DNA of 64,000 nucleotides from Candidatus Krumholzibacteriota bacterium (lineage in GTDB: Bacteria; Krumholzibacteriota; Krumholzibacteriia; JAJRXK01). The stretch covers positions 1 through 64,000 of the forward strand of contig JAJDAC010000002.1 in assembly GCA_029262065.1 (NCBI GenBank), written 5' to 3'. Below the pieces are notes generated by a model. It was given only the letters and a program-made list of their open reading frames with translations. It was not told where the DNA came from and ran no database searches. Shown here in pieces: positions 3,542-58,025 of this stretch. The translations under genes and the position numbers were made by a program. Numbering within the stretch: the first letter of the stretch is position 1; every line of letters begins with the position of its first letter.

Positions 3542-3639
3542 GAACTTTCGCCTCGACGGGAAGATGAGATAAGCGGGGAGACTGTAAGTATACACCATGC
3601 AAAAGGTCGTTGCCCTTGCCGCCGGTATCGCGCGCATGT

Positions 3640-3805: not shown

Positions 3806-3818
3806 GGCGATTCACCAA

Positions 3819-3834
3819 CCTTCGGGGGAAGGAA
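3819..3834 (+). promoter_or_regulatory. RBS-sequestering hairpin, riboswitch expression platform
   Basis: CCTTC-GGGG-GAAGG forms a perfect 5-bp hairpin at 3819-3832 whose 3' half contains the Shine-Dalgarno sequence, two bases before the ATG at 3835. It begins 17 nt after the B12 box. This suggests translational control, with ligand binding stabilising this hairpin or its loop contact with the aptamer. Confidence 0.65.
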
Positions 3835-18798: not shown

Positions 18799-18906
18799 TC
18801 CGGCCCGGCCACCGCACCGTTCCTTCGGCCGCCGGGTCCATGCTACGCTGCGCGTTCGAACTCGAATCAAGTTCACGCCCATTCGAACAGCCAAGCACGA
18901 ACCGGC

Positions 18907-20037: not shown

Positions 20038-20060
20038 TACGCGCGGGGCCAGGGAGGTAC

Positions 20061-24748: not shown

Positions 24749-24765
24749 TTTCTGTGGAGTCTCCG

Positions 24766-28267: not shown

Positions 28268-28338
28268 CGGCCCAGCCTGCCACAAGCCCAAGTCGACAAC
28301 AAGACAAGGGTTTGTCCTTCCGGAGCGTCTCCATACCC

Positions 28339-31730: not shown

Positions 31731-31940
31731 TTACTGGGCCGAGTCCATGCGCTTGCGCAGGCTGGCCGGACGCATGTCGGTCCATACCTCGTCGATGTAG
31801 GCCAGGCACTCGTCCTTGGTGCCCGATTTCCCCACTTCGTTCCAGCCCATGGGAATTTCCTCGCCCGCCAGCCAGATTGAGTACTGCTCTTCGTGGTTCA
31901 TGACCACGGTGTAGGTGCGGTCGTCGTGTTCGTCGTTCAT
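31731..31940 (-). CDS. MbtH-like NRPS accessory protein
   Basis: 69 residues from the ATG at 31940 (AAAGGAA about 11 bases upstream); an ATG at 31982 would add 14 residues without a ribosome site. The family core is present: [33 protein letters not shown]. MbtH-like proteins bind adenylation domains in the cytoplasm and support their folding and activity. It is the last gene of the operon, 60 bases after the type II thioesterase. It may serve any of the six A domains. Confidence 0.93.
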
Positions 31941-32000
31941 CGCCAGGAATTTCCTTTTGCTGGGGCAATCGCTGTACGGCATGAACTGTACAGCATCTAC

Positions 32001-32738
32001 CTATAGGTCGTGCAACCAGCGTTCGAGCTGATGCGAAAGATGATGTCCGAACTGAGCCTGGGTTACATAGAAGTGTCCACCGGAAACGTCGTGGCGGTCG
32101 AAACTGGCCGAGGTGAGCTGGCGCCACGCCGTGGCGGCCTCGACGCTCACCACCGGATCGTTCGGGTCCAGAAACGATACCACGGGACACGCCAGACGCT
32201 GCGATCCATCGCACTCGTAGGTCTCGATGACCTGGAAATCGGCGCGCAGCGTGGGTAGCATGATCCCCAACAGTTCTTCGTGCTGAAGCACCTCTTCGGG
32301 TGTCCCACCCAAGGCGCGTAAACGCCTCAGGAAAGTCGCGTCGTCTTCGGTATGCATGGGAGGCCGTTCGGGGCCAAAATGCGGTGCCGGCGAGGCCGAC
32401 ACGAAGACGCGGCGCGGTGCCTCGGCCCCCGACTCCATTCGCCGCCGCGCCCACTCGTAGGCCACCACAGCTCCCATGCTGTGGCCGAAGAACGCGAACG
32501 GTCGATCCAGCGTGGCGGCGGCGTCCAGGTGCGCGGCCAACTCCACGGCACTACCCACCGGCGCATCGCCCAGGCGCCGCTCACGTCCGGGCAATTGCAC
32601 CAGAGCCAACTCGACTTCGTGTGGCATCTGGTCGAGCCAAGCCTGAAAGATCCAGGTTCCGCCCCCGGCGTAGGGCAGGCAGAACACCCGGGCCCGGGCG
32701 TCGGGACGCGGACGCGGCACGGTGAACCAGGCGCTCAT
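32001..32738 (-). CDS. Type II thioesterase of the NRPS/PKS cluster
   Basis: 245 residues; the ATG at 32738 overlaps the NRPS stop as ATGA. The alpha/beta-hydrolase pattern of GrsT/SrfAD-type enzymes is complete. It includes F-C-L-P-Y-A-G-G-G near residue 20, F-F-G-H-S-M-G-A (Ser near 88), D-P-N-D-P-V for the acidic residue, and G-G-H-F-Y for His. These enzymes remove wrongly loaded or stalled acyl groups from carrier proteins. Since no terminal thioesterase domain is visible in the assembly line, it might also take part in product release, but that is inference. Confidence 0.92.
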   Translation of the reverse strand: MSAWFTVPRPRPDARARVFCLPYAGGGTWIFQAWLDQMPHEVELALVQLPGRERRLGDAPVGSAVELAAHLDAAATLDRPFAFFGHSMGAVVAYEWARRRMESGAEAPRRVFVSASPAPHFGPERPPMHTEDDATFLRRLRALGGTPEEVLQHEELLGIMLPTLRADFQVIETYECDGSQRLACPVVSFLDPNDPVVSVEAATAWRQLTSASFDRHDVSGGHFYVTQAQFGHHLSHQLERWLHDL

Positions 32739-35700
32739 ACCGAAGTTCCTTCGTGCGAACCGGCGTCACCAATCGTCGACGCCAGCTGTGCCAACGAGTT
32801 GGCAAAGACTTCGCGCAGGCTCAACTGATGCCCGATCTTCTCTTCGACCCGGGCAATCATGCGAATCGCCAAGAGCGAATGTCCTCCCAGGTCGAGGAAT
32901 GTGTCGCGGCGACCGACCCGGTCGATCGAAAGCAACTCGCACCAGACCTCGGCGATCGCGCTCTCGGCGCCCGGGAAGGGCGCTTCGAATTCGGCGCTGG
33001 CCCAGGCGTGTGCGTCCTGGCCCAACGGTGGCAGCTCATCCAACTGTTGTACATGGGCGGGCACGGCGGCTAGACCCATCTTCTGACGGAGATGACCGCG
33101 AATGGCGAGCGTCGATTGGGTGGCATCGCCAACCAGCGAAACCACAAGGCGGGGCGGTTCTCCCTGCATCTCCGCGCGCGCCTGGCGAACGCCCGCCATG
33201 GCCAGCAGCACTATTTCGACCTGGGACAGATCCAGCGAAGTACCGTCGATGGAGACCACCCGGGACGTTGAGTCCGCCGGCTCATTGACCGTGGGATCGG
33301 GCAAGGCCCGCCGATTCAACTTGCCGTGCGGCGTACGCGGAACTTCTTCGATACGCACGAAGACCGAAGGCACCATGCTCAGCGGCAATTCCGCGCGAAG
33401 GTGCTCGCGCAACCGACGCTTATCAAGCTCCGCAGGTGAGACCACATAGGCCACCAGGCGTTGATCATCGGGGCCAAATTCGTGCACCACGACCACGGCC
33501 GCACCCACACTGTCGTGGCGCAACAGGGCCCCTTCGATCTCGCCGGGTTCGATGCGCATGCCCCGCAAACTGATCTGTGCGTCGGCCCGGCCCATGAACA
33601 CCAGCTCACCATTGGCTCGCCAACGAACCAGATCTCCGGTGCGATACATGCGCTCACCCGGCCGGCGTGAAAACGGATCGGGAACGAAACGTTCGGCGGT
33701 TGAACCCGGACGACGCACGTACCCGCGGGCAACCGCTCCGCCGCCGATATAGAGTTCGCCGGCCACGCCCACGGGGACCGGCTGCAACGCGGCGTCCAAC
33801 ACATAGGCTCGGCTATGGTCGAAAACACGCCCCAGGGAGACAGGCGAAACGACATTCGACTGCGCCGAGACCTCATGCGCGCAAACGCCCACGGTGGTCT
33901 CGGTCGGACCGTAGTGATTGAACACGGTCAGGTCGGGGCGTGCGGCCATGATGGCACCGAGAAATTCAGCGCCTGGTTCCTCCCCGCCCACGATCAGCAC
34001 GCGACGCGGAAGTGCACACCAGGTTGGGTCTCCGGCCGTAAGTACATGCAAGTGCGACGGCGCAATCTTGAGCACATCGGGCCTACGGGCTTCGAATGAT
34101 TCGCGGACCCGGGCCGCCGACGCCGACGCGTCGGGCGAGAGTATGCGCAGCTCGCCGCCCCCCATGAGCGGCGGAAACACCGTGGTGACCGACGAATCGA
34201 CCGTCAACGGCTGCAACATGGCGAAGCGGCCGTCGGTAGCCAGCTTCAGCCGATCCACGACATCAACAACGTACGTGTAGAGCTGACTGTGTTCCACCGC
34301 GACACCCTTGGGCCGGCCGGTAGAACCCGACGTAAACAACGTGTAGGCCAGGTTGGACGGTTTCAAATCCACGCGTGGAGGATCATCCCGCCCTTCTTCC
34401 CCGGTGGGCATCTGGATGTGCTTACGCCCTGGGGCCACCGATGGGTCCCAATCCGATCCAACCACCACGACCGAGACACCGGCGTCTTCGAGAACCTGTT
34501 CTTGCCGCGCCGCCGGATGCGCCGCGTCCAATGGAACGTAACCGCCGCCCGACTTGAGCACCCCGAGCAACGCAATCACGAGGTCCGGCCCACGGTCCAG
34601 CCACAGTCCCACGGAAGTCTCGGGGCCCACGCCGGCGTCGCTTAACGATTGCGCCAACGCGTTCGATCGCCGATCCATCTCGCGGTAACTGATCTCCCGG
34701 TCCCCGAACGATATCGCCACCGCATCAGGGGTGCGCTGCGACTGCTCCCGGATGCATTCGTGCACCAACCGCAGCGGCGGCGTGGATTCGTCAGACCGAT
34801 TCCATTCGAGCACTCGGTGTCGCTCCCAGGGCGACGTAAGCCGGGCGCAGCCGATTTCAATGTTGGGCTGGGCCACGAGCGAGCCCAGCAGATTCACGAA
34901 ATGACTCCCCATGCGGCGCACGGTGACCTCGTCGAAGAGATCGCGGTTGTACTCCAGCTCGGCATCGAACCCCGCGTCGGCCCGCGCGATGAGCCGCAAC
35001 GTAACGTCTTGCTTCGCACTGCCGGTATCCGGCGGAAGCGGACGCAGAGGGCGACCCGCGAAGTTGGAAAGGTCGAGCGGCATGTTCTGGAGAACCAGCA
35101 CCGCCTGGAAGATCGGCGTGTGCGCCAGGTCGCGCTGAGGCTGCAGCTCTTCCACCAGGCGCTCGAACGGAATGTCCTGGTGGTCGAACGCTTCGCGCGC
35201 TACCTGTCCCACACGATCGAGCAGTTCCTCGAACGATGGCGACCCGGCCAGATCCACGCGCAACGCCAACGTGTTGATGAGCGGTCCGACCACGCCTTCG
35301 CTGGACAATCGATTGCGGTTGGCCACCGGAGTGCCCACGACGATCTCGTCCTGATGCGCGTAGCGGTGCAGAAGCGTCGCGAACGCCCCCACCAGGAGCA
35401 TGAATTCGGTAACCTGGTGCTGCTTCGCCACCGATGCGATTCCAGCACCGAGGGTCGCATCGATCGAGAAGCCGGTCGTGGCGCCGGCAAACGTTTGCGT
35501 CAGCGGGCGCGGTCGGTCGGTGGGCAGCTGAAGTACGGAGAGCGGCGGTGCCAGCTGCTGCTTCCAGTAGGACAACTGCTCGTCGAACTCGCCACCGTCG
35601 AGACGTTGGTTCTGCCAGCGAGCGAAGTCTCGAAACTGGAGCGGCGGCGGCGGCAGGGCCAAGGTCGAGTCCGAACGTTCCTCGGCCGCCACCAACTTGC

Positions 35701-38700
35701 CAAGCTCGTCCAGGAGAATGGCCAGTGACCATCCATCGCACACAATGTGGTGGAGGCAAAGCGCCAGGATGCACTCGTCTGGGCTCAACTGGGCCAGCGC
35801 CAAACGCACCAACGGTCCTTTTTCGAGATCGAACGGTCGCTGCACGAAATCGCCCAACCACGCATCGAGACCATCGAGACTTTCATTCGTGGAATCGGGA
35901 GCTTCCACGGTTCCCTCGAACGCCGCCACGACGCGTTGCCGAGGCTCACCGTCAACCAATGTGAATACCGTGCGCAGGATCTCGTGTCGTTGAGCCAGCC
36001 GCATCATGGCTGCGAGAAGGTCCCGCGGCCGTACGGCCCCCTCCAGGTGAAGCAACAGCGGAACGTGGTAGAACGCGCTATCGGGCTCCCACTGCCGCAA
36101 GAACCACATGCGCTTCTGGGCAAACGAGACCGGGTAGGTCTGATCCAACTGCAACCGCGTGGCTTCAGGAACGGTTGCCGTGGACGTCGACCCTCGAGCC
36201 GCTTCGATCCTTTGGGCCAGCGCCGCCACGGTGGGCCGGGCAAAAAATTCTCGCAGGGGCAAATCAACACCCCACCGAGCTTCCACGCGCGACACCACGC
36301 GCGTGGCCAATAGCGAATGCCCACCCAATTGGGCGAAGAAGTCGTCCTCGGCGCCCACGCGTTCCACCGAAAGCAATTCACTCCACAGCGACGCCAGTTC
36401 AACCTGGGTCTCTCCCGCCGGCGCCACGTACACCCGCGGCTGGTCTTCGGGGTCGGGAAGCGCCATGCGATCGACCTTGCCCCGCGATGTCAACGGGAAG
36501 TCCTCCAACTCAACCCACGCCGAAGGCACCATGGCCGAAGGGAGCCGGTCGGACGTGAAGCGTCGGAGCTCCTTGACATCAAGGTCGTGGCCCGTCCGGG
36601 TCGTGAAGTAGGCCAGGATTCGCCGCTCGTCCGCCAACTCACCTTGAGCAACTACCAAACTCTGGAGAACCGCGGGGTGTGCTGAAAGAACGGCTTCGAT
36701 CTCCCCCAACTCGATGCGGTGGCCACGCACCTTGACCTGGTTGTCGCCGCGTCCCAGGAACTGCAGCGTTCCGTCACCAACCCACCGAACCCGGTCCCCG
36801 GTGGAATACAAGCGCTGACCCGGCGACGATGCGAAGGGGTCGGGAATGAATCGATCTGCCGTGGCCGCGGCCGCGCGCCAATACCCTCGGGCCAGCCCAT
36901 CACCGGCCACGTACAGTTCACCCACTACCTGGGGCGGTACCGGCTGCAGGCGCGAATCGAGTACATACACGCGTGCGTTCGGAACCGGGCGGCCGATGGG
37001 TACCGGCACATCAACGTTCTCGCCCACGACATGACAGGTACTGAAGGTCGTGCCCTCGGTCGGCCCGTACCCATTCACAATGACCAGCGCGGGAAAGCGC
37101 CGTCGCAGCGCAGCCACGTGCGTCGGGGACACGACGTCGCCGCCGGCCAACACCTGTTTCACGTGCGCGAAGGCATCGATCTGATCGTCGATCATTTGAT
37201 GAAAGAGTCCGGCGGTGAGCCACAGCGTGTCCACGCGATGGCGCTGAATTGTTTGCGCCAACTCGGCCAGCGAAGCAGGACCAGGCGGCGCCACCACCAG
37301 CTGACCACCGTGCAGCAACGGCGCCCACAACTCGAAGGTCGAGGCATCGAATGCCAATGGGGCATACATCAACACCCGACATTCGGGACCCAGATCGACG
37401 TAGTCGGGGGTGTGGACCAACCGGACCACATTGCGATGGGTAACCGCGACCCCCTTGGGAAACCCCGTAGAACCCGACGTATACGAAATGTACGCCAGAT
37501 TCCCGGCCGACAGTTCCGCCGGAACATCATCGACCGGAGTCAGAGATGCCATATCTTCCAGCAACGCGCATGACGCGCCAATGGAAAGAATCTTCTGCTC
37601 GTACCTCTTTTCCGTGAGAACCAGGCTCGCTCCCGTGTCGTCGTGGATGAATCGCAACCGCGCGGCCGGCAGTTCGGGATCGAGGGGTACGTAGCAACCG
37701 CCCGCCATCAGCACCGCCAGGACCGCGACTACCATGTCTTCGGAGCGTTCCAGGCAAACGCCTACGGGTGACTCTATCGACACACCACGCTCGCGCAAAC
37801 CCGCCGCCACCGAAGCCACGCGGGACGCCAGTACGCCGTAGCTCATGGGACCGGCGTTGGTAACCACGGCCGTGCGCTCTGGGGTTTTCGCGGCAACCTG
37901 CAGAAACAGGCCAACGATGGTGGCGTCACGCGGATAGTCGCGAATCGTCTGGTTCCACTGCGTGGTAACGAGTTCGCGTTCCTGCGGCAAGAGCAGCGTG
38001 GCGTCGCCAACGGCCGCGTCCGGGTTTGCGGTCAACTGGTCCAGCAACGAACAGAACCGGCGAGATGACGCCTCAGCCGTGGCCTGATCGAACACGTCGG
38101 TGTCGTACTCCCACCGCACGCCCATCGTCGACTCGCGTTCCTGTACGTGAAGCGTCAGGTCGAACTTGGCCACACCCGCATCCAACAGCACTTCCTCCAC
38201 CTTCAGCCCGTTCAGAGCGAAGGCTCCTTCCGCCACGTTCTGCATGGCCAACATCACGCGGAAAAATGGCGTTCGCCCCGCCCCCCGTTCGGGCCGGAGA
38301 ATCTCGACCAGCCGATCGAAGGGTAGTTCCTGATGGCCCAGATTGTTCAGCGACTCCGATTGCGCCTGCGCCACCAGATCGGCAAACGTGGCGTCCCGCT
38401 CGACATGCCCCCGGGCTACCAACGTATTCACGAAGAAACCCACCAGTCCCGACAGCTCGGGCGAAGTGCGGCCGGCCACCGGATAGCCCAGGGCCACATC
38501 GTGGTTGTCCGTGGCGCGAAACAAGTACGCCCACAACGCGGCCATCAACACCGACGGCACCGAGGCCCGAACGCGCCGCGCAACCAGGCGGATGTTGGCC
38601 GTGGTCGAAGGACCGAGGGTCACCGAAAACGTACGGCCATGCCCGGCAGCCCGAACCGAAGGGCCCTCGCCAGACAGGTCGCCGGACGGGCTCAAGTGGG

Positions 38701-39391
38701 CCAGGTGAGCCTTCCAGTACTCAACCTCATGTTCGAGAGCGCCGCCGTCCAGTCGCTGGTTTTGCCAAGCCGCATAGTCTACGTAGCGAACATCCGGCGC
38801 TGCCGGCAGCTCCTGGCCCGCATACGCGGCGGCCAGCTCCTGCCATAGGATGCCCAGCGACCAACCGTCGCAGACGATGTGGTGCGCCACCAGGTAGAAC
38901 AGGTACTCGGCGTCGCCCGTGCGAACCAGAGCCGTGCGCAACAGTGGCCCCGTGGCAAGATCGAACGCACCGGTGGCTTGCTCGCGATGAATGTCGTCCA
39001 CGCGCGCCGCCCGTGATGAGTCATCGAGATTTCTCAGGTCCTCGATTTCAAACGCGGCCGGCCCCGCCGGCGCGATCACCTGCACGGGCCCATCTTCGAC
39101 TACGGGGAACGTGGTTCGGAGGACTTCATGGCGCGATACCAAGGTGTCCAAGGCCATCCGCAGTCGATTCGCGTCGAGTGGCCCAGTGACCCTGAGCGCC
39201 AGCGGCACGTTGTACAGCGGGGTTCCTGGCTGGAATCGTTCGAGAAACCATAGCCGCCGCTGGGCCGACGACAACTCGTACCACGGCGCGTCCCCGGTTC
39301 GCACCACGGCGTGGGAGTCTGAATCTACCTGTGACTTCTGCCGCAATCGGAGGGCAAGCAGCGCACGCTTCTGGCGCGTCAGCGGATCCAT
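32735..39391 (-). CDS. NRPS, two modules: C-A-T-C-A-(A-sub remnant)-T, predicted Val-like and Asp-like
   Basis: 2218 residues, starting five bases after the upstream NRPS. It opens with an L-T-R-Q-K-R-A-L-L-A-L-R-L-R docking-like helix. C1 has intact H-H-I-V-C-D-G near residue 170. A1 core T-S-G-S-T-G-F-P-K-G is near 640; its code read by eye is DAFWLGGTFK, close to Val. T1 G-G-H-S-L is near 1020 and C2 H-H-I-V-C-D-G near 1215. A2 core is near 1690, with code DSTKIGHVGK, close to Asp codes apart from Ser at the second position. Between A2 and the final T (G-G-H-S-L near 2167) lies an extra segment at about 2045-2130 that looks like a decayed adenylation C-terminal subdomain. There is no terminal TE, R or C domain. 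Confidence 0.93.
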   Translation of the reverse strand: MDPLTRQKRALLALRLRQKSQVDSDSHAVVRTGDAPWYELSSAQRRLWFLERFQPGTPLYNVPLALRVTGPLDANRLRMALDTLVSRHEVLRTTFPVVEDGPVQVIAPAGPAAFEIEDLRNLDDSSRAARVDDIHREQATGAFDLATGPLLRTALVRTGDAEYLFYLVAHHIVCDGWSLGILWQELAAAYAGQELPAAPDVRYVDYAAWQNQRLDGGALEHEVEYWKAHLAHLSPSGDLSGEGPSVRAAGHGRTFSVTLGPSTTANIRLVARRVRASVPSVLMAALWAYLFRATDNHDVALGYPVAGRTSPELSGLVGFFVNTLVARGHVERDATFADLVAQAQSESLNNLGHQELPFDRLVEILRPERGAGRTPFFRVMLAMQNVAEGAFALNGLKVEEVLLDAGVAKFDLTLHVQERESTMGVRWEYDTDVFDQATAEASSRRFCSLLDQLTANPDAAVGDATLLLPQERELVTTQWNQTIRDYPRDATIVGLFLQVAAKTPERTAVVTNAGPMSYGVLASRVASVAAGLRERGVSIESPVGVCLERSEDMVVAVLAVLMAGGCYVPLDPELPAARLRFIHDDTGASLVLTEKRYEQKILSIGASCALLEDMASLTPVDDVPAELSAGNLAYISYTSGSTGFPKGVAVTHRNVVRLVHTPDYVDLGPECRVLMYAPLAFDASTFELWAPLLHGGQLVVAPPGPASLAELAQTIQRHRVDTLWLTAGLFHQMIDDQIDAFAHVKQVLAGGDVVSPTHVAALRRRFPALVIVNGYGPTEGTTFSTCHVVGENVDVPVPIGRPVPNARVYVLDSRLQPVPPQVVGELYVAGDGLARGYWRAAAATADRFIPDPFASSPGQRLYSTGDRVRWVGDGTLQFLGRGDNQVKVRGHRIELGEIEAVLSAHPAVLQSLVVAQGELADERRILAYFTTRTGHDLDVKELRRFTSDRLPSAMVPSAWVELEDFPLTSRGKVDRMALPDPEDQPRVYVAPAGETQVELASLWSELLSVERVGAEDDFFAQLGGHSLLATRVVSRVEARWGVDLPLREFFARPTVAALAQRIEAARGSTSTATVPEATRLQLDQTYPVSFAQKRMWFLRQWEPDSAFYHVPLLLHLEGAVRPRDLLAAMMRLAQRHEILRTVFTLVDGEPRQRVVAAFEGTVEAPDSTNESLDGLDAWLGDFVQRPFDLEKGPLVRLALAQLSPDECILALCLHHIVCDGWSLAILLDELGKLVAAEERSDSTLALPPPPLQFRDFARWQNQRLDGGEFDEQLSYWKQQLAPPLSVLQLPTDRPRPLTQTFAGATTGFSIDATLGAGIASVAKQHQVTEFMLLVGAFATLLHRYAHQDEIVVGTPVANRNRLSSEGVVGPLINTLALRVDLAGSPSFEELLDRVGQVAREAFDHQDIPFERLVEELQPQRDLAHTPIFQAVLVLQNMPLDLSNFAGRPLRPLPPDTGSAKQDVTLRLIARADAGFDAELEYNRDLFDEVTVRRMGSHFVNLLGSLVAQPNIEIGCARLTSPWERHRVLEWNRSDESTPPLRLVHECIREQSQRTPDAVAISFGDREISYREMDRRSNALAQSLSDAGVGPETSVGLWLDRGPDLVIALLGVLKSGGGYVPLDAAHPAARQEQVLEDAGVSVVVVGSDWDPSVAPGRKHIQMPTGEEGRDDPPRVDLKPSNLAYTLFTSGSTGRPKGVAVEHSQLYTYVVDVVDRLKLATDGRFAMLQPLTVDSSVTTVFPPLMGGGELRILSPDASASAARVRESFEARRPDVLKIAPSHLHVLTAGDPTWCALPRRVLIVGGEEPGAEFLGAIMAARPDLTVFNHYGPTETTVGVCAHEVSAQSNVVSPVSLGRVFDHSRAYVLDAALQPVPVGVAGELYIGGGAVARGYVRRPGSTAERFVPDPFSRRPGERMYRTGDLVRWRANGELVFMGRADAQISLRGMRIEPGEIEGALLRHDSVGAAVVVVHEFGPDDQRLVAYVVSPAELDKRRLREHLRAELPLSMVPSVFVRIEEVPRTPHGKLNRRALPDPTVNEPADSTSRVVSIDGTSLDLSQVEIVLLAMAGVRQARAEMQGEPPRLVVSLVGDATQSTLAIRGHLRQKMGLAAVPAHVQQLDELPPLGQDAHAWASAEFEAPFPGAESAIAEVWCELLSIDRVGRRDTFLDLGGHSLLAIRMIARVEEKIGHQLSLREVFANSLAQLASTIGDAGSHEGTSV

Positions 39392-39396
39392 GGGAT

Positions 39397-42762: not shown

Positions 42763-42767
42763 ACCAC

Positions 42768-48513: not shown

Positions 48514-51500
48514 TCGGATTCCACGGAGTCCTTGGGGCCACGGCGGCCACCGCCCCGCCGTCGCAGAAGGGCGCGGCGGGCCGCGCCCCGGTCACGTCCG
48601 ACGCTGGCGGCCCGACCCGTATCCACCGCCTGGTCAAGGCGTCGGGCCAACGACCGTATCGTCGGAAACTGAAACAATTCTACCACGGACAGTTCCCTGG
48701 CAAAGGCCTCAGCCAAACGCGCCTGCGCCTGGATCATGAGCAGGGAGTTTCCGCCCAGATCGAAGAAGTTGTCCTTGGCACCAATCTCGGCCACTCCGAG
48801 CAGATCCCGCCATACCGCGGCGATTGTCTGCTCCGTGACATTGGATACCGCGACATATTCCGCGGTCGCCAGTGCACGATCCTCGGGCGGGCGCGGCAAC
48901 GCCTGGCGGTCGAGTTTGCCGTTGGGGTCAAGCGGCAGACGCTCCAGCTCAACAATGTGGCCCGGCACCAGGAAGTCCGGCAGCTCGCCGGCCAGACGCT
49001 GCCGCACGTCGGCCATGGTCGAAGCCGGATGGCTGGCATCGGCCACCACGTACGCCACCAGGCCGCGGCCGGCGGCAAGGTCCGACCTGACCACTACCGC
49101 ACACGACTTTATGGCCGGATCATTCAACAGCACCGACTCGACCTCCCCCGGCTCGATCCGGAATCCCCGTACCTTCACCTGACGGTCGGAGCGTCCCAGG
49201 AATTCGAGGGTACGGTCGCCGCGCCAGCGCACGCGATCCCCGGTACGGTAGCGACGGCCGCCGGGCACGGTGGGGTCGGGGACGAATCGCTCAGCCGTCA
49301 GACCGGCCTGGCCCAGGTAGCCTCGGGCCACACCGGGGCCACCTATATATAGTTCGCCCGGAACACCAACCGGGACGGGGCTGCCGATCGCGTCCAGGAC
49401 GGCCACATGCGTGTGAGCGATCGGACGGCCGATGGGCACCGGGCGCGTAACGGCGTCAACACTGTCCATTCGATGGCACACGGCAAATGTCGTGGTTTCG
49501 GTGGGACCGTATCCATTGATCACCGAGCAACCAGGCACCTCAAGCAGCACCCGTTCGACGCGGTCGGCCGACAACACGTCGCCACCGGCCAGCACCTGTC
49601 GCACTCCGCGCAGAACCTGAGGGTCGTGGTCGACCACTTCGTGGAACAGCCCGGCCGTGAGCCAGAGCGTGGAGACCGTGTGGTCTTTGAGAACCCGGCG
49701 CAGGCCGGTTGGCGTTGCCATCTCGTCGGGGTAGATCACCAGGGCGGCACCGTTCAACAGTGGTGCCCACAGCTCGAAGGTGGAGCCGTCGAACGAAGTT
49801 GGCGCGAGCAACAGGACCCGCTCGTGCTCGGCCAGACTGAAATAGTCGTTCTTGGCCACCAACCGCACGACCGACTGCTGCGCCGTGGCCGTACCCTTGG
49901 GTCGACCGGTCGAACCCGACGTGAACATGACGTAGGCCAGATCAAGACCGGTGGTGGTCACGGCAGGACGGGTGGCCGGCGTACCGACCGGCGCCGTATC
50001 GGAGATGGACAGAGTAGGTATGACGTGGGGCAGCTCGATGGCCTTCGTCGACGCGTCCACGATCACCAGGTCCAGCGGAACGTCCTGTATCATGGCCGAC
50101 AGTCGCGCCACGGGGTACGTCGCGTCCAAGGGCACGTAGGCGGCTCCGGCCTTGAGTACCGCCAGGACGGCCACCACGAACTCGCGCGAACGCGGCAGGC
50201 AGATTCCCACCTTTGAACCACGAACCACCCCGCTGGAAATCAACGCATGCGCCCACGCATTCGCCCGTTCATCCAACTGCTGGTAACTGAGCGTTCCCCG
50301 TGCGTCGACGATCGCAGTGGTAAGCGGCGCGGCATCCACCTGCGCCTGGAACCGTGCGACCAGGCCCACTTCGAAATCCAACGGCGGTAGTGCACCCTGC
50401 CCGTCGACCACGGTAGCCGCAATCTGCTGGGTCGGGGCCATCGCAATCGAACCCAAGGGTTCGTAGGGCGACTGCGCAATGTTCCTGGCCATGGTTGTCA
50501 AGAACGAGCCCCAGCGTTCAACCGTGGCGCGTTCGAACAGGTTTCGATCGAACTCCAGGCGCCCGGGCCAGGTGCTGCCGCCACCGCGATCCAGGCTGAA
50601 CACCAGATCGAACTTCGAGCTGTCGGTATCGAGGAAACGAGCGGTAACGGTGGAGTCGCCCAATTTGCGTTTGCCCAGCGGGGCATCCTGCAGCGTGAAC
50701 ATCACCTGGGCCAACGGAGGCCGACTGGTATCCCGATCGGGCTCTTGCTGATCGACTACCTCCGAGAAGGGAAGATCCTGGTGGGCGAGCGCATCGAGCA
50801 CCGCCCGTCGGGTCCTGGCCAGATTCTCGAGAAACGGTTGCGTCGGGTCGACGCTGGATCGAATCGCCGCCGTATTCAGAATACAACCCACCATGCGTTC
50901 CAGTTCGGGCCGGTCGCGTCGCACCACGGGTATCCCCACGGCAAAGTCATCCTGATCGGCAAGACGCTGTAGCAACGCCCGAAATACGGTGAGGAACACC
51001 ATGAACGGAGTGGCATCAACATCGCGACCCAACGCTTCCAACGCACGGGCCGCAATTGGTTGCAGTTCGAATTCCACGACGTCGCCCTCGAAACCCTGGA
51101 CGGCGGGGCGAGGGAAATCCACCGGCAGATTCAGCGGCGCCAGTCCGGCCAGCGCCTGGGCCCAGTAGTTTCGTTGTCCATCCAATGACTGTGATCGCAG
51201 CCAGAATGAATAGTCCGAATACTGAACCGGTGGTATCGGCGGAGCATCGCGTCCCGCGATCTGCGATTCCAACGTAGTCAGAAGGTCATCGTAGAGGATG
51301 TCGACCGAGGACAGGTCCGCCACGATATGATGTAGCAGAATCAGAACGTATAGGTGCGCATCACTACGGGCGACGGCCACGCGTACGGGCACTTCAGAGT
51401 CGAGCTGGAACGGTTCCCGGGCCATGGCCCGAAACCGGGCCAGAACCTGCTGCGCATCGCCCGCCGCACACCACTGCCATGAAATTCTCGATGCGTCGTC

Positions 51501-54500
51501 CACCTCGATCCGAGGTTCTCCACCTACCGCCGGCATCCTGGTGCGAAGAACTTCGTGCATGCCAAATACGTGCAGCAACGCGCGGTGAATCTGATCGTCT
51601 TCGATATGGCTCGGCAACTCCACCAGCAACGGCACGTTGTAGGCGGGGTTGTCGGGTTGCCAGCGCTGCAGGAACCACAATCGCTCCTGCAACGGCGACA
51701 ACTCCCGCGCGCTGTCAGCATCGCGAGCCATGATGGAACTGGGAGCCGCATGTGCCGAACGTACACGAGCCGCGAGCTCTTCCACCGTGGGCGCGGCGAA
51801 GAATTCAGGCAACGTCACCTCAACGGCGTGCAACGCTCGTAAATGGGCCAAGAGCCGCGTGGCCAGCAAGGAGTGACCGCCCAGATCGAAGAAATCGTCC
51901 AGAGGACCCACGTGGTCCACCGAAAGCAACTCCTGCCACTGCTCGCGGATCGAGGCTTCCACTTGGTCACGCGGCTGGGTGACGTCGACCGCCGTAGCCG
52001 GCCGCGGATCGGGCAGTGCGTTGCGGGCTACCTTGCCGTTGGGATCCAGCGGTAGGGAGTCCATGGGGACCCACAGCGTGGGTATGAGGTAGCGAGGTAG
52101 GATGGTCGCGAGCGCCGCGCGATGTTTGGCGCCGCCGTCACCTGAATCCGGTGTTACATAGGCGACCAGTTGCTTCGTGCCGGTGGCATCGTCACGGGCG
52201 ACAACCACGGCCTGATCAACGAAGTCCAACTGGCGTAGAACGACCTCGACCTCACCGGGCTCTACCCGAAAGCCCCGGATCTTGACCTGATGGTCCGATC
52301 GGCCGAGAAACTCGAGGCTTCCGTCGGCACGGAATCGCGCTCGATCGCCAGTATCATATAAGCGTCCACCCGGACGATCAGCGTAGGGATTGGGCACGAA
52401 CCGGGCGGCCGTAAGTCGTGCATCGCGGGGGTACCCACGGGAAATTCCGTCACCGGCAACGTAGAGACGGCCCGCCAGCCCGACCGGCAGCGGGCGTAGC
52501 GCATCGTCGAGGACGTAGGCCTGACTGTTGCTGATGGGTCGGCCGATGGACACGGGATCGGTCACGTCTTCCAGTACCCGCATCACATGACAGCAACTGA
52601 AGGTGGTGTTCTCGGTGGGTCCATAGCCATTGATTACGGTGATGCCAGGTATGGCCGAGAGCACGCGCCGAACCGCGGCCGGTGACAACACGTCACCGCC
52701 GGCCAGAACCGTGCGCAGCGAGGCCAACGCCTGCACGTCTTCCTCGACGATCTGGTGGAACAACCCAGCGGTGAGCCACACGCTATCCACGTTGAACTGG
52801 GCGATGTGCCGAGCCAGACCCATGGCCGTGGGAACGTTTTCGGGGTGCACGACCAACCGGGCACCGTGCAGTAACGCGCCCCAGATCTCCAGGGTAGACG
52901 CGTCGAACGAGACCGGCGCCATGAACAACCAGGTCCGATCGATTCCGAAGTCGAGATAGTTGGCCCCATGCACCAGTCGCGTGACCGCGCGATGCGGCAC
53001 GGCCACACCCTTGGGCTGACCGGTCGAGCCCGACGTGAACATGATGTAGGCCAGCCGCTCAGGATGGACACGCGGTGCCACAAACTCCTGGCCGTGGAGC
53101 GATCGGGGCTGGCCCAGATCGAGCCAATGACAGGCATGGCGCAGCTCATGAACCAGCGGCGACGCTCGATGGATTCCGTGCCCCACCTGGGCATCGGCCA
53201 ACATCAGGGTCAGCCGTTCGCTTGGATAGGCCGGGTCGAGCGGCACGTAGCATCCACCGGCCTCGAGAACCGCCAACGCCGACACGACGAAATCTGCCGA
53301 CCGTGGCAGGAGCAGCGCCACACGATCTTCCGGCCCCAAACCCGCGGCTTGAAGCGACGTAGCCAGCTCCCGCACCTGCTGACGCAGCTCGCGGTACGTA
53401 ATCGTGGTTCCATCGGGCTCCACCACGGCCACACGCTGGGCATGGTCGCGGGCGACGGCGTCGAACTGCGCATGCAACGGCCGACCCGGTATCTCGCGAC
53501 GCGTTTGGTTCCATTGAACCAGCTGCTGCTTGCGCTCGGCTGATGTCGCCAGAGGAAATCCAAAGACACGCTGATTTTCCTCGCACACCAGCGTAGTCAG
53601 GGTTCGCAGGATCACATCGGCCCACCGCGCGGCCGTGTCGGCACGAAACAAGTCCGTGCAGAATTCCAGCGTGCCCGCGATCGAATCATCACGCTCGTCC
53701 AGGGAAAGCAATAGGTCGAACTTCGATGTTTCGTTGGTCACGAAACAACCGCTCATCCGCACGTTGCCCCGCTCACGTTCTTCCATGGGCACAGGTTGCA
53801 TGGTGAACATGGTCTGGAACAGCGGTGTGGCCGACGGATTGCGGCGGGGCTGGATGCGTTCGACCAGTACTTCCAGCGGAACATCAGCGTGCTCCATGGC
53901 GTCCAGTACGCGTCGCTTCACGCGGGCGGCGACGTTGGACAACGTAGGATCACCGGCCAGGTCGGTGCGAATCGCCAACGAGTTGAGAACCGGCCCCACT
54001 ACGTCGCGCATCTGCGACGATCGTCCTCCGGCGGCGGGAATGCCCACGGCGAAGTCGCGTTGCCCGCCAATTCTGGCCAACGCCACCTGGAACGCGGCGA
54101 GCACCGCCATGAACGCGGTGATTTCGTTGCGTTGACACCAGGCGCGCAACTCGCGGGTCAGTTCAGGTCCCAGGTCCACGCCGACTACGTCACCGCGGTG
54201 GCTTTGGATGGGTGGCCGTGGAAAGTCGCAGGGAAGCTCGAGCACGGGCAGACCCGTCAGTGCCTTGATCCAGTGACGCGCGGAAACATCCAGCAACCCG
54301 TCCCGCAACAGGCTTCTCTGCCACTCGACAAAGTCCGAGTACGCCAGCTCCGGAGACGCCGGCCGCGAAGAGCCCGACAAGGTGCCCAACAGGTCATCAA
54401 GAATCAAGTCCATCGACTGCAGATCGACCGCGATGTGATGCACGACGAGCAACAGATGATAGCGGTCGGGAGCCCGGAACAGGGTCACCCGCACGGGGGC

Positions 54501-57500
54501 CGACGCTTCCAGGTCGAACGGCATCCGCGCGCGCGCCAGCAACTGAGCATCCAGGTCGTGATGTTGACCACCGAGGTCCACGACTTCGCAGTCCGACGAT
54601 GCCTCGGTCTGAACTCGCGCCACCGGCGCGCCGTCGACTTCCTCGTAGCGGGTGCGTAGAACCTCGTGACGGCCGAGCAGCTCATCCACCGCCGCCACGA
54701 TGGTCTCCGCCGGCACCGGACCCTCGATCTCGATGTGGGCGCTTACGTTGTAGGCGGCACTGTCGGGCTTCCAGCGCTGAAGAAACCACAGTCGCTCCTG
54801 CAGCGACGACACCACGCCCGCCGTCGATCCGGCGCGAACGACCGGAAGCCCCGCGCGGACGTTGTTCGCGAGAACCCGCTCGACCGCGGTTGCCAATTCG
54901 GCCACGGTCGAATGCACGAACAGATCCCGCAACGGAAGCTCAATTTCGTAGATCTGCCGGAGTCGGGTAACCAGACGCGTAGCCACCAGCGAATGTCCGC
55001 CCAATTCGAAGAACCCGTCGTCGCGCCCCACGCGGTCCAACTCCAGCAGCTCCATGAACAGATCGGCCACCGTCCGCTCTATCGGCGTTTGCGGCGGCAC
55101 CGCGCCCTTCGACACGAGGGCGTCGTAGGTACGGGGATCGGGAAGGGCCTGGCGATCCAACTTGCCGTTGGGCGTCAGGGGAAATCGTTCAACGCCGATG
55201 ACCACCGAGGGAATCATGTACGCCGGAAGCGTGGACCGCAGTTGCTCACGAAGGTCGGCCGGTGCGCTGCCTCGAACGTACGCCACGAGACTGGTGCTTC
55301 CTCCAACGCTCCGATGCTCACCAAACGGAATTACGCGAACCCCGGTTACCCCGGGCAGCGCCCCAATGGCCGCTTCTACTTCGGCCGGTTCGACCCGGAA
55401 GCCGCGAACCTGCACCTGCTGATCCGCGCGGCCCAGATACTCCAGGTCACCATTGGCAGCGAGTCGGCCGCGATCGCCACTGCGGTACAGGCGTTCACCC
55501 GGGTCGGCCGCAAAGGGGTGGGGCACGAAACGGCTGGCCGTCAGACCAGCCTGGCCGACGTAACCCCGCGCCACACCGGCGCCACCCACGTAGATCTCGC
55601 CCGCGACGCCGAATGGCACCGGACAGAGGGCGTCGTCGAGTACATAGAGTTCAAGATCAGGAAGCGCGTGGCCCACGAAGCTGGGGCCGCCTACATCGTC
55701 GACCAAAACCTCGCGAAACGTAACGTGAACCGTGGTTTCGGTGATGCCGTACATGTTGATCATGCGCGGATGGTCATCGCCGTGTCGTTCGAACCATGAA
55801 CGCAACATGCGGAAGTCGAGCGCCTCGCCGCCAAATACCACCGTGGCCAGATCGGGCCAGGTCGCCTGCGCATCGACCGCGTCCAGTAGCGCCGCAAAGG
55901 CCGACGGAGTCTGGCTGAGCATGGTGATGCGTTCTTCACGCAACCAGCGCGCGAACGCCTGTGAGTCGCGCGCAAGATCGGACGAGGCAAGGACCGCCGT
56001 ACCCCCGTGCAGCAACGCGCCCCACAGCTCCCATACCGAGAAATCAAACGAGAACGAATGGAACACCGACCACCGTTGTCTTGCGTCGTAGGCAAACAGC
56101 TCGCCGCTCTCACGAAACAATCGAGCCACGTTGGCATGACTGACCGCCACGCCCTTGGGCCGTCCCGTCGAGCCCGATGTAAACAACACGTAGGCCAGTT
56201 GTTGCGGACTCACGTCGACGGCGACCGAGAGCGGTTCGTGAGCTTCGCAGGTCGTCAGTGCCCAGCACGGCACGCCCGAATCAACCAGGCTCTCCCCGGT
56301 CGCATCGATCACACCCGCCGCGTCCGCGTCGGCCAGAAACCCGCGCAAGCGTGACGAGGGTAACTGGGGATCGAGCGGCAGGTAGGCGGCTCCGGCCTTC
56401 AACACGCCCAGCAAGGCCACCACGAAGTCCAACGACCGCTCGAGGTGGAGCCCTACGATCGCCTCCGCTCGCACACCGCGCTCGACCAGGGCACCGGCTA
56501 CGCGGTCCGCTCTGCGTTGCAGTTCCAGATAGGTCAGCTCGTGGGCGCCATGACTCAGGGCCACCGCATCCGGTGTCGCCCAGGCCACTTCGTCGAATCG
56601 GGCCGGAAGGGCCCGGACCACGGGACGCCGGGCGCGATCGTGGCCCCGCTGCGCAGCCAGGACACGTTCCCGCTCATCGCGTCCCAACACGGAGATGCGA
56701 TCGACGGGATCGTTGCCGGCCACCGCCAGTTGCCCGAGAACCATTTCCAGTTGACGCGACACACGCTCCACCGTCGCCAACGAGAATCGGCGGGGGTCGT
56801 AGCCCAGAACCCAACTCAGCCGGCTTCCCTGGCTGACGACCAGAGTCAGCGGAACGTCGGTCTGAAATCGCATGCGTCCCTCGGCACCGGATACCACGCC
56901 ATCGCCGGCCGCCAACGATTCACCCCAATCGTCACCCTCGAACACATACAGCGTATGAAACAGCGGTGCGTGTTCATCGCGGCGAGCTTTGGCTTGGATA
57001 TCGGTCAGCGGAGTCTGTTCATAGGGACGCATGTCGATCCAGCGCGCCCGAAGACCACGCATCCAATCGTGCAGTCCGTCATCATGCGACCAGCGAGCGC
57101 GCACCGGCACCGTGTTGATGCACAGCCCCACCAGGTCGTCAGACGCCGTGGGTGCCCCCTTGCGACCGGCCCGCGTGGCACCGAACACCACGTCGTTGCG
57201 GCCGGTCCATTTGCCCAACACGATGGCCCACGCCGCCATGGCCAAGGTGTTCATGGTTACGCCGATGTCCTGCGTCGCTTTCATCAACGCGGAGAGGTCG
57301 GCATCTCCCGTTGCTCCTCGATACTCGGCATACCCCGGAGTAGCTGTCGTGGAATCGAAGGGGATGGGCGTGGGAAGAGCCGCCCCGGCCAGCACACCGC
57401 GCCAGTAGGCGCGGTGCGGCGCGCGCGCCTGGGTTCGGGTCCACTGTGCGAACGGAAAGAAGGACATGGGCGTGGCGTCGAAGCCCGCCCCCACATCGCG

Positions 57501-58025
57501 TCCATCCACCAGGTTCTGGTAGGCCGCGAAGACTTCCGTCAGCAACAGTCGGAAGGAGCGACCGTCGAGCACGGCGTGGTGCCAGGTCCACACCAGTTCC
57601 CAGTCGTCGTCACCAAACTGTAGTAACCCGACCCGCGCCAGACCCGCGCGGGCCAGATCGAAACCACGCCGTCGCTCGTCCTGCGCAAACGCGTCCCAGC
57701 GCCGGCCGCGATCATCGGGGCCGTCAACCAAGGCACGCAAATCGCGATGAACGAATTCCAGATCCACCCGCGGCTCTACGACCTGTACGGGCTCGGCCCG
57801 GTCGTGCCACTCGAAACGAACGCGCAAGACTTCGTGTCGATCGGTGAGCCACTGCCACGCCTGCACCATGGCGGGCACCTGCACCGGCTGGCGCAGCCGA
57901 ATCAGGATCTGCTGAACGTTGACTCCAGGATCACTCGAGTACAAGGCACGAAAAAGCATCCCCTCCTGCAGAGGAGACAACGCGTGCGCGGAGGTAGGAA
58001 GGGAAACGGGGTCGTTGGAAGTCAT
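48510..58025 (-). CDS. NRPS, three modules: C-A-T-C-A-T-C-A-T, predicted Thr, Val-like, aliphatic
   Basis: 3171 residues from the ATG at 58025; the open frame runs to 58229, but that extension is low-complexity and overlaps the leader hairpin. C1 (L-S-P-L-Q-E-G-M-L-F, H-H-A-V-L-D-G near 149) stands at the very start of the line, so it may add a starter acyl group. A1 core is near 617, code DFWSVGMVHK, matching Thr. T1 is near 1008. C2 has H-H-I-A-V-D-L near 1197. A2 code DALWLGGTFK is Val-like and T2 is near 2050. C3 has H-H-I-V-A-D-L near 2233. A3 code DGFWLGGTFK is aliphatic-like but with an unusual Gly. T3 is G-G-N-S-L near 3090. No epimerisation domains are seen. The last 45 residues are rich in Arg, unlike usual docking tails. 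Confidence 0.94.
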   Translation of the reverse strand: MTSNDPVSLPTSAHALSPLQEGMLFRALYSSDPGVNVQQILIRLRQPVQVPAMVQAWQWLTDRHEVLRVRFEWHDRAEPVQVVEPRVDLEFVHRDLRALVDGPDDRGRRWDAFAQDERRRGFDLARAGLARVGLLQFGDDDWELVWTWHHAVLDGRSFRLLLTEVFAAYQNLVDGRDVGAGFDATPMSFFPFAQWTRTQARAPHRAYWRGVLAGAALPTPIPFDSTTATPGYAEYRGATGDADLSALMKATQDIGVTMNTLAMAAWAIVLGKWTGRNDVVFGATRAGRKGAPTASDDLVGLCINTVPVRARWSHDDGLHDWMRGLRARWIDMRPYEQTPLTDIQAKARRDEHAPLFHTLYVFEGDDWGESLAAGDGVVSGAEGRMRFQTDVPLTLVVSQGSRLSWVLGYDPRRFSLATVERVSRQLEMVLGQLAVAGNDPVDRISVLGRDERERVLAAQRGHDRARRPVVRALPARFDEVAWATPDAVALSHGAHELTYLELQRRADRVAGALVERGVRAEAIVGLHLERSLDFVVALLGVLKAGAAYLPLDPQLPSSRLRGFLADADAAGVIDATGESLVDSGVPCWALTTCEAHEPLSVAVDVSPQQLAYVLFTSGSTGRPKGVAVSHANVARLFRESGELFAYDARQRWSVFHSFSFDFSVWELWGALLHGGTAVLASSDLARDSQAFARWLREERITMLSQTPSAFAALLDAVDAQATWPDLATVVFGGEALDFRMLRSWFERHGDDHPRMINMYGITETTVHVTFREVLVDDVGGPSFVGHALPDLELYVLDDALCPVPFGVAGEIYVGGAGVARGYVGQAGLTASRFVPHPFAADPGERLYRSGDRGRLAANGDLEYLGRADQQVQVRGFRVEPAEVEAAIGALPGVTGVRVIPFGEHRSVGGSTSLVAYVRGSAPADLREQLRSTLPAYMIPSVVIGVERFPLTPNGKLDRQALPDPRTYDALVSKGAVPPQTPIERTVADLFMELLELDRVGRDDGFFELGGHSLVATRLVTRLRQIYEIELPLRDLFVHSTVAELATAVERVLANNVRAGLPVVRAGSTAGVVSSLQERLWFLQRWKPDSAAYNVSAHIEIEGPVPAETIVAAVDELLGRHEVLRTRYEEVDGAPVARVQTEASSDCEVVDLGGQHHDLDAQLLARARMPFDLEASAPVRVTLFRAPDRYHLLLVVHHIAVDLQSMDLILDDLLGTLSGSSRPASPELAYSDFVEWQRSLLRDGLLDVSARHWIKALTGLPVLELPCDFPRPPIQSHRGDVVGVDLGPELTRELRAWCQRNEITAFMAVLAAFQVALARIGGQRDFAVGIPAAGGRSSQMRDVVGPVLNSLAIRTDLAGDPTLSNVAARVKRRVLDAMEHADVPLEVLVERIQPRRNPSATPLFQTMFTMQPVPMEERERGNVRMSGCFVTNETSKFDLLLSLDERDDSIAGTLEFCTDLFRADTAARWADVILRTLTTLVCEENQRVFGFPLATSAERKQQLVQWNQTRREIPGRPLHAQFDAVARDHAQRVAVVEPDGTTITYRELRQQVRELATSLQAAGLGPEDRVALLLPRSADFVVSALAVLEAGGCYVPLDPAYPSERLTLMLADAQVGHGIHRASPLVHELRHACHWLDLGQPRSLHGQEFVAPRVHPERLAYIMFTSGSTGQPKGVAVPHRAVTRLVHGANYLDFGIDRTWLFMAPVSFDASTLEIWGALLHGARLVVHPENVPTAMGLARHIAQFNVDSVWLTAGLFHQIVEEDVQALASLRTVLAGGDVLSPAAVRRVLSAIPGITVINGYGPTENTTFSCCHVMRVLEDVTDPVSIGRPISNSQAYVLDDALRPLPVGLAGRLYVAGDGISRGYPRDARLTAARFVPNPYADRPGGRLYDTGDRARFRADGSLEFLGRSDHQVKIRGFRVEPGEVEVVLRQLDFVDQAVVVARDDATGTKQLVAYVTPDSGDGGAKHRAALATILPRYLIPTLWVPMDSLPLDPNGKVARNALPDPRPATAVDVTQPRDQVEASIREQWQELLSVDHVGPLDDFFDLGGHSLLATRLLAHLRALHAVEVTLPEFFAAPTVEELAARVRSAHAAPSSIMARDADSARELSPLQERLWFLQRWQPDNPAYNVPLLVELPSHIEDDQIHRALLHVFGMHEVLRTRMPAVGGEPRIEVDDASRISWQWCAAGDAQQVLARFRAMAREPFQLDSEVPVRVAVARSDAHLYVLILLHHIVADLSSVDILYDDLLTTLESQIAGRDAPPIPPVQYSDYSFWLRSQSLDGQRNYWAQALAGLAPLNLPVDFPRPAVQGFEGDVVEFELQPIAARALEALGRDVDATPFMVFLTVFRALLQRLADQDDFAVGIPVVRRDRPELERMVGCILNTAAIRSSVDPTQPFLENLARTRRAVLDALAHQDLPFSEVVDQQEPDRDTSRPPLAQVMFTLQDAPLGKRKLGDSTVTARFLDTDSSKFDLVFSLDRGGGSTWPGRLEFDRNLFERATVERWGSFLTTMARNIAQSPYEPLGSIAMAPTQQIAATVVDGQGALPPLDFEVGLVARFQAQVDAAPLTTAIVDARGTLSYQQLDERANAWAHALISSGVVRGSKVGICLPRSREFVVAVLAVLKAGAAYVPLDATYPVARLSAMIQDVPLDLVIVDASTKAIELPHVIPTLSISDTAPVGTPATRPAVTTTGLDLAYVMFTSGSTGRPKGTATAQQSVVRLVAKNDYFSLAEHERVLLLAPTSFDGSTFELWAPLLNGAALVIYPDEMATPTGLRRVLKDHTVSTLWLTAGLFHEVVDHDPQVLRGVRQVLAGGDVLSADRVERVLLEVPGCSVINGYGPTETTTFAVCHRMDSVDAVTRPVPIGRPIAHTHVAVLDAIGSPVPVGVPGELYIGGPGVARGYLGQAGLTAERFVPDPTVPGGRRYRTGDRVRWRGDRTLEFLGRSDRQVKVRGFRIEPGEVESVLLNDPAIKSCAVVVRSDLAAGRGLVAYVVADASHPASTMADVRQRLAGELPDFLVPGHIVELERLPLDPNGKLDRQALPRPPEDRALATAEYVAVSNVTEQTIAAVWRDLLGVAEIGAKDNFFDLGGNSLLMIQAQARLAEAFARELSVVELFQFPTIRSLARRLDQAVDTGRAASVGRDRGAARRALLRRRGGGRRGPKDSVESE

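Follow-up and report, generated by a model that had tools for sequence, protein, structure and literature searches.

Statine-type units are built from an amino acid, one malonate, and a ketoreductase (KR), which gives a gamma-amino acid with a reduced beta-carbon and no oxygen at the alpha-carbon. Two described systems use a luciferase-like monooxygenase (LLM). In mupirocin biosynthesis, the free-standing and flavin mononucleotide (FMN)-dependent LLM MupA acts at a subunit junction of a trans-AT polyketide synthase (PKS); the receiver is a KS0 domain, and a functional KR reduces the chain after hydroxylation (PMC10952193). In vitro, MupA turns over the beta-keto-acyl-ACP, not the beta-hydroxy form, and its hydroxylated product is unstable (PMC10952193). 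In the puwainaphycin pathway, the oxygenase PuwE lies between a PKS module and a nonribosomal peptide synthetase (NRPS) module and is fused with both and with an aminotransferase; a fatty-acyl-derived chain becomes a 3-amino-2-hydroxy acid, whose 2-hydroxy group was assigned to PuwE from the product (PMC4219810). Here we describe a seven-gene NRPS-PKS cluster from Candidatus Krumholzibacteriota bacterium (GCA_029262065.1) with a free-standing LLM encoded between its PKS and an NRPS. The cluster lies in the first 64,000 nucleotides of contig JAJDAC010000002.1, which is the whole stretch that we analyzed and which we call the window.

Like MupA, the LLM in the window stands free at a subunit junction, and it belongs to the same NCBIfam family: it scores 464.5 bits against TIGR04020 (MupA/Atu3671 family; cut-off 244.45). 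Unlike in mupirocin biosynthesis, the receiver is the C domain of an NRPS, and the PKS combines an AT of its own with a degenerate KR. So this is not a mupirocin-type bimodule, which has a non-elongating KS0 as receiver in place of a C-A-T module, although it may work in a similar way. The nearest relative with a solved structure is PuwE (6KET, E = 3.2e-97), which is also the best fold match to a predicted model of the LLM (mean pLDDT 81.8). As in statine-type units, an amino acid and one malonate should give a gamma-amino acid, but the window has a degenerate KR and a putative alpha-oxygenase. By sequence, it does not have the working KR after an amino-acid-loading NRPS module that characterizes a statine-forming module. 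We also considered PlyE from polyoxypeptin biosynthesis as an analogue and dropped it, because it is proposed to be a FAD-dependent N-hydroxylase.

We think it probable that the cluster is an intact hybrid line for a peptide (starter?)-Thr-Val-X*-Ile-Val-Asp, where X* would be an oxidized, malonate-extended aliphatic residue that forms by the steps proposed below.

A hybrid line with a degenerate ketoreductase

The genes of the cluster, and the elements of the PKS-LLM-NRPS2 junction, are:

48510..58025, minus: NRPS1, C-A(Thr)-T-C-A(Val)-T-C-A(aliphatic)-T (Pfam, domain map, A codes)
43945..48513, minus: PKS protein, KS-AT-KR-ACP (Pfam, motifs)
47209-48486, 46069-46932, and 44074-44289, minus: KS, malonyl-type AT (HAFH), and ACP of the PKS (Pfam, motifs)
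44554..45156, minus: degenerate KR of the PKS (Pfam, alignment to solved KRs)
44020..44049, minus: C-terminal tag of the PKS, ELETLLGDIE, a putative donor docking element (tail comparison)
42768..43952, minus: LLM (luciferase-like FMN monooxygenase), MupA/Atu3671 family (TIGR04020, structure comparison)
43866..43913, minus: N-terminal helix of the LLM (residues 14-29), a putative NRPS-type acceptor docking tag (tag model, predicted structure)
39397..42762, minus: NRPS2, C-A(Ile-like)-T (Pfam, A code)
42676..42738, minus: N-terminal tag of NRPS2, RLAALTPEQRALFELRRRQRG, of the same type as the LLM tag (tag comparison)
42202..42222, minus: active-site motif HHIATDR of C4 (usually HHxxxDG) (motif reading)
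32735..39391, minus: NRPS3, C-A(Val)-T-C-A(Asp-like)-T (Pfam, A codes)
32001..32738, minus: discrete (type II) thioesterase, GHSMG, a possible release or editing enzyme (Pfam)
31731..31982, minus: MbtH-like protein (Pfam)

These genes run from 58025 to 31731, and adjacent genes overlap or are separated by 5-18 bases. NRPS1 starts at the ATG at 58025, inside an open reading frame (ORF) that is open to 58229. The initial annotation, which was made from the letters and ORFs of the window, had described seven co-directional genes with six NRPS modules, one PKS module, a monooxygenase, a type II thioesterase, and MbtH. Our ORF, Pfam, and motif analyses bear this out at the same positions. That annotation had also named frameshifts as a possible problem, but all seven frames are open, with no stop or break (from the ORFs and the positions of motifs), which rules out a frameshifted or decayed line. 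All six C domains retain HHxxxD, seven carrier proteins have LGG[HN]S, and the KS and AT motifs are present. With consecutive C-A-T and KS-AT-ACP modules that carry their catalytic motifs, this is a type I modular NRPS-PKS hybrid.

Parts of the description had to change. The line was called complete, which is an overstatement: Pfam and motif scans found no loading domain ahead of C1 in the cluster proteins, and nothing of the TE, R, or C type at the end of NRPS3, beyond its last carrier protein. (The discrete thioesterase is possibly the release enzyme, and it is the only candidate in the cluster.) Because many bona fide assembly lines lack dedicated initiation or release, this bears on completeness and not on the kind of system. 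Also, the malonate unit had been read as such, and the KR at 44554-45156 was absent from the description. HAFH is a mark of malonyl-type AT domains, and the AT has this motif, which fits malonate as the extender. A plain two-carbon insertion does not fit, given the degenerate KR and a monooxygenase from the family named after MupA, which oxidizes the alpha-carbon of a beta-keto-ACP intermediate.

The KR matches the full length of the Pfam model (120.9 bits) and keeps the Lys, Ser, and Asn. The catalytic Tyr, which is present in the four solved KRs that we aligned, is replaced by Ala (codon GCC at 44650-44652), and the NADPH motif reads TGSPRDPV (45097-45120) in place of TGGxGxxG. We rejected sequencing error as the cause: two or more bases would have to differ to turn a Tyr codon into GCC, and the glycine motif is altered as well. 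The KR appears to be dead, so the malonate unit should remain beta-keto and the chain a beta-keto-acyl-ACP. A degenerate KR before a MupA-family enzyme is the arrangement that is expected if the ketone is retained. The LLM would then alpha-hydroxylate the beta-keto-ACP intermediate, as MupA does. Given the family of the LLM and the apparently dead KR, an alpha-hydroxy-beta-keto-gamma-amino acid is the best prediction for X*.

The PKS-LLM-NRPS cassette in other bacteria

To place the LLM, we used the best 80 of 594 matching stretches (583 relatives) from a scan of named species, which is not a census. Phylum labels are from record titles, and four loci (L053, L054, L056, and L061) come from metagenome bins. 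A tree of 84 LLMs places the LLM from the window within a clade of 11 (support 0.975). Among the loci listed, the members are from Chloroflexota, Acidobacteriota (two), Bacillota (five), Gemmatimonadetes, Streptomyces, and the window. In nine of these loci, the LLM gene directly adjoins a PKS gene on one side and an NRPS gene on the other, while in L055 and L057 it comes after both. A tree of 92 C domains contains a matching clade, made up of the C domains that come first after the PKSs of these loci (eight at 0.98 and ten at 0.914); L057 falls outside, and the other loci are the same as in the LLM clade. We refer to this arrangement as the cassette. It is found in five named phyla besides the lineage of the window.

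The C4 domain of the window has HHxxxDR, which is found in 8 of the 10 C domains of the cassette clade and in 1 of 82 others (Fisher P = 4e-9, ignoring relatedness). The sole case outside the clade is a C domain from Komarekiella (L076, at about 7948). It is likewise the opening domain of an LLM-containing protein, and HHxxxDR could therefore be a more general mark of LLM-processed chains.

At the N-terminus, all 11 LLMs in the clade have a sequence such as RLAALSPEQRALLERRLKQQG, and the downstream NRPS subunit begins with a sequence of this type. We modeled this tag from 13 NRPS N-termini in which it was visible as a pattern; the model includes no LLM and is biased towards that tag. Members of the clade score 14.1-49.8 bits (11/11), and the best of 1,100 shuffled sequences scores 12.2. 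Among the eight other stand-alone LLMs, four have 1.0 bits or less, one was not reported, and three were not scored (N-termini of three residues or less). In the predicted structure of the window's LLM, residues 14-29 form an isolated helix ahead of the barrel. At the other side of the junction, an acidic PKS C-terminal tag similar to ExExLLxEIE is present in the window and in 8 of the 9 clade PKSs that were read, versus 1 of 43 other tails (the pattern was composed after the tails had been seen). The exception, L101, has the PKS and NRPS tags, but its LLM is untagged and outside the clade. This suggests that the tags are an ordinary PKS-NRPS docking pair and that the clade LLMs copy the acceptor half. 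A term search of a docking review did not find the words "trans-acting", "tailoring", or "monooxygenase".

Erosion of the KR is also common in the cassette. The fetched neighborhoods contained 61 KR sequences, of which 53 were readable at all checked positions. The glycine motif and Tyr are both intact in 42/46 readable KRs outside the cassette group and in 0/7 within it, including the window (Fisher P = 2e-6, ignoring relatedness). The Tyr is lost in five of the seven, three of which are from Paenibacillus. An eighth member of the group, L061, reads TGGAGELE with the Tyr kept (0/8 intact with this locus). In the domain scan of the neighborhoods, no KR was seen in L054, L055, or L057. In four loci (L056, L061, L142, and L144), the last glycine of TGGxGxxG is Glu and the Tyr is kept. 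This shared change could be a second route of KR loss.

The window, which was one of the defining loci, bears all four signatures: LLM clade, LLM tag, broken or absent KR, and HHxxxDR. We therefore looked at held-out loci from 396 genomes around an acidobacterial member (9 matched) and 392 genomes around a Paenibacillus member (27 matched). These searches gave 42 loci: 3 from genomes that had been used already, 12 with fused LLMs, 10 with untagged stand-alone LLMs, and 17 with tagged LLMs. We left out L167, a duplicate of L060, so that 16 tagged held-out loci remained. The 10 untagged LLMs (L153, L170-L173, and L175-L179) have no KR upstream and no C domain downstream in their flanks. Neighbors were readable for 14 of the 16 tagged loci (L154 and L155 show neither neighbor in their short flanks). 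HHxxxDR is present in 12/14 (not in L145 or L166), and the KR Tyr is lost in 11/14, with Gln or Leu at that position (it is kept in L142, L144, and L145). Six held-out loci are distant from those used earlier, with best DNA matches of 74% or less (L142, L144, L145, L162, L166, and L181). Four of these six have HHxxxDR and three have lost the Tyr. The three that keep it have Glu, Glu, and Ser, respectively, as the last glycine of the motif, so that the KR is broken at the Tyr or the glycine motif in 6/6.

Among the loci compared, close counterparts are those of Paenibacillus ihumii and P. elgii (L058 and L059), which share the order C-A-T, KS-AT-KR-T with the Tyr lost, LLM, C-A-T, as well as the tag and HHxxxDR. 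Their clusters differ from the window's in having three NRPS modules, an epimerase-like domain, and other A codes. A plasmid of Pantoea stewartii (L133) has an annotated relative of the cassette: in a single gene run with two NRPS genes, KS-AT-T, which lacks a KR, is followed by a stand-alone LLM whose tag is weak (8.5 bits).

An orphan NRPS-PKS line as such is ordinary. What is new is the cassette with its docking tag, eroded KR, and frequent HHxxxDR C domain, and a literature search, largely of journals outside subscription, found no paper about it. We tentatively suggest that a horizontally spread cassette (a PKS without KR activity, a tagged LLM, and a HHxxxDR C domain) makes and gates alpha-hydroxy-beta-keto-gamma-amino residues in six phyla. 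The LLM would have acquired an NRPS acceptor tag, so that a single PKS tail recruits two partners in turn, the oxygenase first and the next synthetase after it. Only the oxidized chain would be let through by the HHxxxDR C domain. If so, the cassette is a sequence signature for an oxidized and probably electrophilic residue that a reading of domain order would call plain or reduced malonate. It would also offer a portable docking tag for the recruitment of a stand-alone oxygenase by an assembly line, which bears on the question of how tailoring enzymes that are not part of the line locate their carrier protein.

Proposed chemistry and its alternatives

Our proposal for the line in the window is as follows. 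NRPS1 closes with a predicted aliphatic module, which is followed by a PKS module of the elongating type. With its catalytic residues lost, the KR would be unable to reduce, and the chain would stay a beta-keto-acyl-ACP. As its family and context suggest, the free-standing LLM would dock to the C-terminus of the PKS via its NRPS-like N-terminal helix and alpha-hydroxylate this intermediate, with reduced FMN from an unlinked reductase. NRPS2, which bears an acceptor tag of the same type and whose C domain has the HHxxxDR motif, would take over the alpha-hydroxy-beta-keto chain. From the gene order, NRPS3 would then add Val and Asp.

Several observations weigh against this proposal or against the cassette as a rule. 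We infer the docking from sequence, and the chemistry of the LLM step from sequence, family, and context. The tag of the window's LLM scores 17.4 bits, which is the second lowest of the 11 (L065 is lowest). The genome, which is 95.6% complete, has no flavin reductase of PF01613, and 13/14 control genomes have one. Trees of KS and AT domains do not recover the cassette clade, so the PKS parts may have recombined. HHxxxDR is absent from four loci (L054, L055, L145, and L166), so the four signatures are not a strict rule, and the first His of the motif is replaced in L053 and L065. Similarly, loss of the KR Tyr is not universal, as six cassette-type loci keep it (L053, L056, L061, L142, L144, and L145); their KRs miss one glycine of the motif, which is no proof of inactivity. 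All 11 Tyr losses in the held-out loci are from the search around Paenibacillus and from one order. Finally, 8 of the 16 held-out loci share 93-94% DNA identity with loci of the earlier set and thus add little.

The main rival is that the LLM catalyzes a Baeyer-Villiger-type insertion or a hydroxylation with cleavage, leading to a glycolate ester (a depsipeptide) or a shortened chain. This also requires an unreduced beta-ketone. The LLM fold hosts type II Baeyer-Villiger enzymes as well (3,6-diketocamphane monooxygenase is among the fold matches), and chain cleavage has been proposed for related PKS oxygenases, namely CalD and MndB (PMC8739492) and the oxygenase domain from mandelalide biosynthesis (PMC5698493). 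We consider it unlikely because MupA is an alpha-hydroxylase (PMC10952193), the nearest solved relative, PuwE, is credited with a 2-hydroxy group (PMC4219810), and the diketocamphane enzymes match the model of the LLM at only 18-19% identity. Another outcome, a hydroxystatine (an alpha,beta-dihydroxy-gamma-amino acid), would arise if the KR still works, or if a KR acts in trans after hydroxylation. Mupirocin has a reduction after hydroxylation (PMC10952193), and the KR in the window is full-length with Lys, Ser, and Asn in place. Given the change of Tyr to Ala, the lost glycine motif, and the lack of a second KR in a domain scan of the window, this seems quite improbable to us. We give little credence to the idea that the LLM is inactive or acts on another carrier-bound residue than the PKS unit. 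LLMs are a broad superfamily, and besides the missing PF01613 protein, no reductase gene is among the seven genes of the cluster. Yet the position of the LLM beside the PKS and the next NRPS is fixed in 9 of the 11 clade members, the docking tag is common to the clade, and the clade of C domains matches.

A separate question is whether the line is self-sufficient. C1 might be fed by another subunit, and the true product might be longer than the cluster indicates, which we consider doubtful but worth keeping in mind. C1 opens with a SPLQEGMLF form, its best solved matches are in McyB and PvdL, and its group in the tree (0.909) consists of N-terminal C domains and of those located after epimerase-like domains, which leaves room for a starter or an upstream partner. 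The four members nearest to it (0.951) all stand at an N-terminus. A domain of this kind may thus be the first of a protein or of a line, and C1 could also acylate Thr with a fatty acid. The genome does contain a second, smaller NRPS, on contig C56 (L046:12190-19845), with the codes DLTKIGEVGN (Asn-like) and DSALIAEVWR. It adjoins genes for ornithine cyclodeaminase-like, acyl-CoA dehydrogenase, and AMP-ligase proteins. We found no link between C56 and the cluster and dropped this NRPS as a part of the line.

Predicted residues and genomic setting

The domains of the NRPS proteins (from the domain map, unless noted) are:

56664-57998, 55107-56621, and 54873-55088, minus: C1, A1, and T1 (NRPS1 module 1)
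53526-54830, 51981-53489, and 51753-51968, minus: C2, A2, and T2 (NRPS1 module 2)
50415-51719, 48861-50375, and 48627-48842, minus: C3, A3, and T3 (NRPS1 module 3)
41290-42636, 39751-41256, and 39523-39738, minus: C4, A4, and T4 (NRPS2)
37970-39292, 36428-37930, and 36197-36415, minus: C5, A5, and T5 (NRPS3 module 1)
34814-36148, 33272-34777, and 32762-32974, minus: C6, A6, and T6 (NRPS3 module 2)
32975..33271, minus: decayed extra copy of the C-terminal subdomain of an A domain, between A6 and T6 (BLASTP)

By alignment, the A codes are DFWSVGMVHK, DALWLGGTFK, and DGFWLGGTFK for NRPS1, DAFLVGVTFK for NRPS2, and DAFWLGGTFK and DSTKIGHVGK for NRPS3. The codes that had been read by eye in the initial annotation were reproduced, in the same order. 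We take the reference codes to be DFWNIGMVHK for Thr, DAFWIGGTFK for Val, DAFFLGVTFK for Ile, and DLTKIGHVGK for Asp. Compared to these, the codes fit the order Thr, Val, aliphatic, [malonate], Ile-like, Val, and Asp-like. In Pfam and domain scans, every C-type domain leads into an A domain, so none is epimerase-like. The extra subdomain in the last module was recognized from two fragments with 14/41 identical residues (E = 2e-6), and it is perhaps a scar of module recombination.

The cluster had been called apparently novel, and the style of its flanking genes had been likened to that of FCB or candidate phyla. A host from a lineage with few relatives agrees with the genomes that were available (3 from the same family and 76 from the same class) and with the TonB receptor and FlgD-Ig genes in the flanks. 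As for novelty, the searches described here found no counterpart to the entire cluster, while its PKS-LLM-NRPS core is not unique and occurs in several phyla. A search for the LLM in 387 genomes around the host gave five matches at E <= 1e-30, from its own genome and from four that share only the domain. None of the matches was from the 79 same-family or same-class genomes (20 of these are explicitly without a match), which rules against a cluster that is shared by relatives. When the PKS was sought in 98 genomes (those 3 and 76, with the remainder from the same domain only), the best matches other than short stretches came from two genomes of the same class and reached 49% identity over KS-AT. 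In the named-species scan, LLM identities are 52% or less among the best 80 of 594 stretches, and the highest in any search is 55%. The order of A codes is not repeated in the 16 loci with codes listed (out of the best 80 of 594), and five extended clusters differ from the window's in their modules.

The window is the start of a 359,043-base contig in a 5.77 Mb draft genome, which has two PPTase-family matches (open frames of 309 and 146 amino acids). The G+C content is 0.62-0.66 within the cluster and 0.60-0.66 in the rest of the window, so a recent import is not apparent from base composition. Upstream of the cluster is glgC (58327-59592). Downstream and converging on it, an overlapping plus-strand run at 28237-31717 encodes a MurJ-like flippase, an ABC ATPase (DrrA-like), and an ABC-2 permease, which might be an exporter or part of a neighboring polysaccharide locus. 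We considered the MurJ gene as a sign of self-resistance and rejected this: the genome has four other matches to this family, two strong (171.5 and 93.3 bits) and two weak, and the copy in the window is beside glycosyltransferases, so a polysaccharide role is equally likely. The region 18772-28393 resembles a polysaccharide locus, in which four glycosyltransferases surround two large proteins of 997 and 565 amino acids (20061-24748) that have no Pfam match at E = 0.001. Distant from the NRPS genes, 14675-15793 encodes a protein of the 2-oxoglutarate/Fe(II) oxygenase family (DIOX_N and 2OG-FeII_Oxy). A retropepsin-like/PDZ protein, FlgD-Ig proteins, and a TonB receptor are encoded at 254-7270, in a style seen in uncultivated FCB-like lineages.

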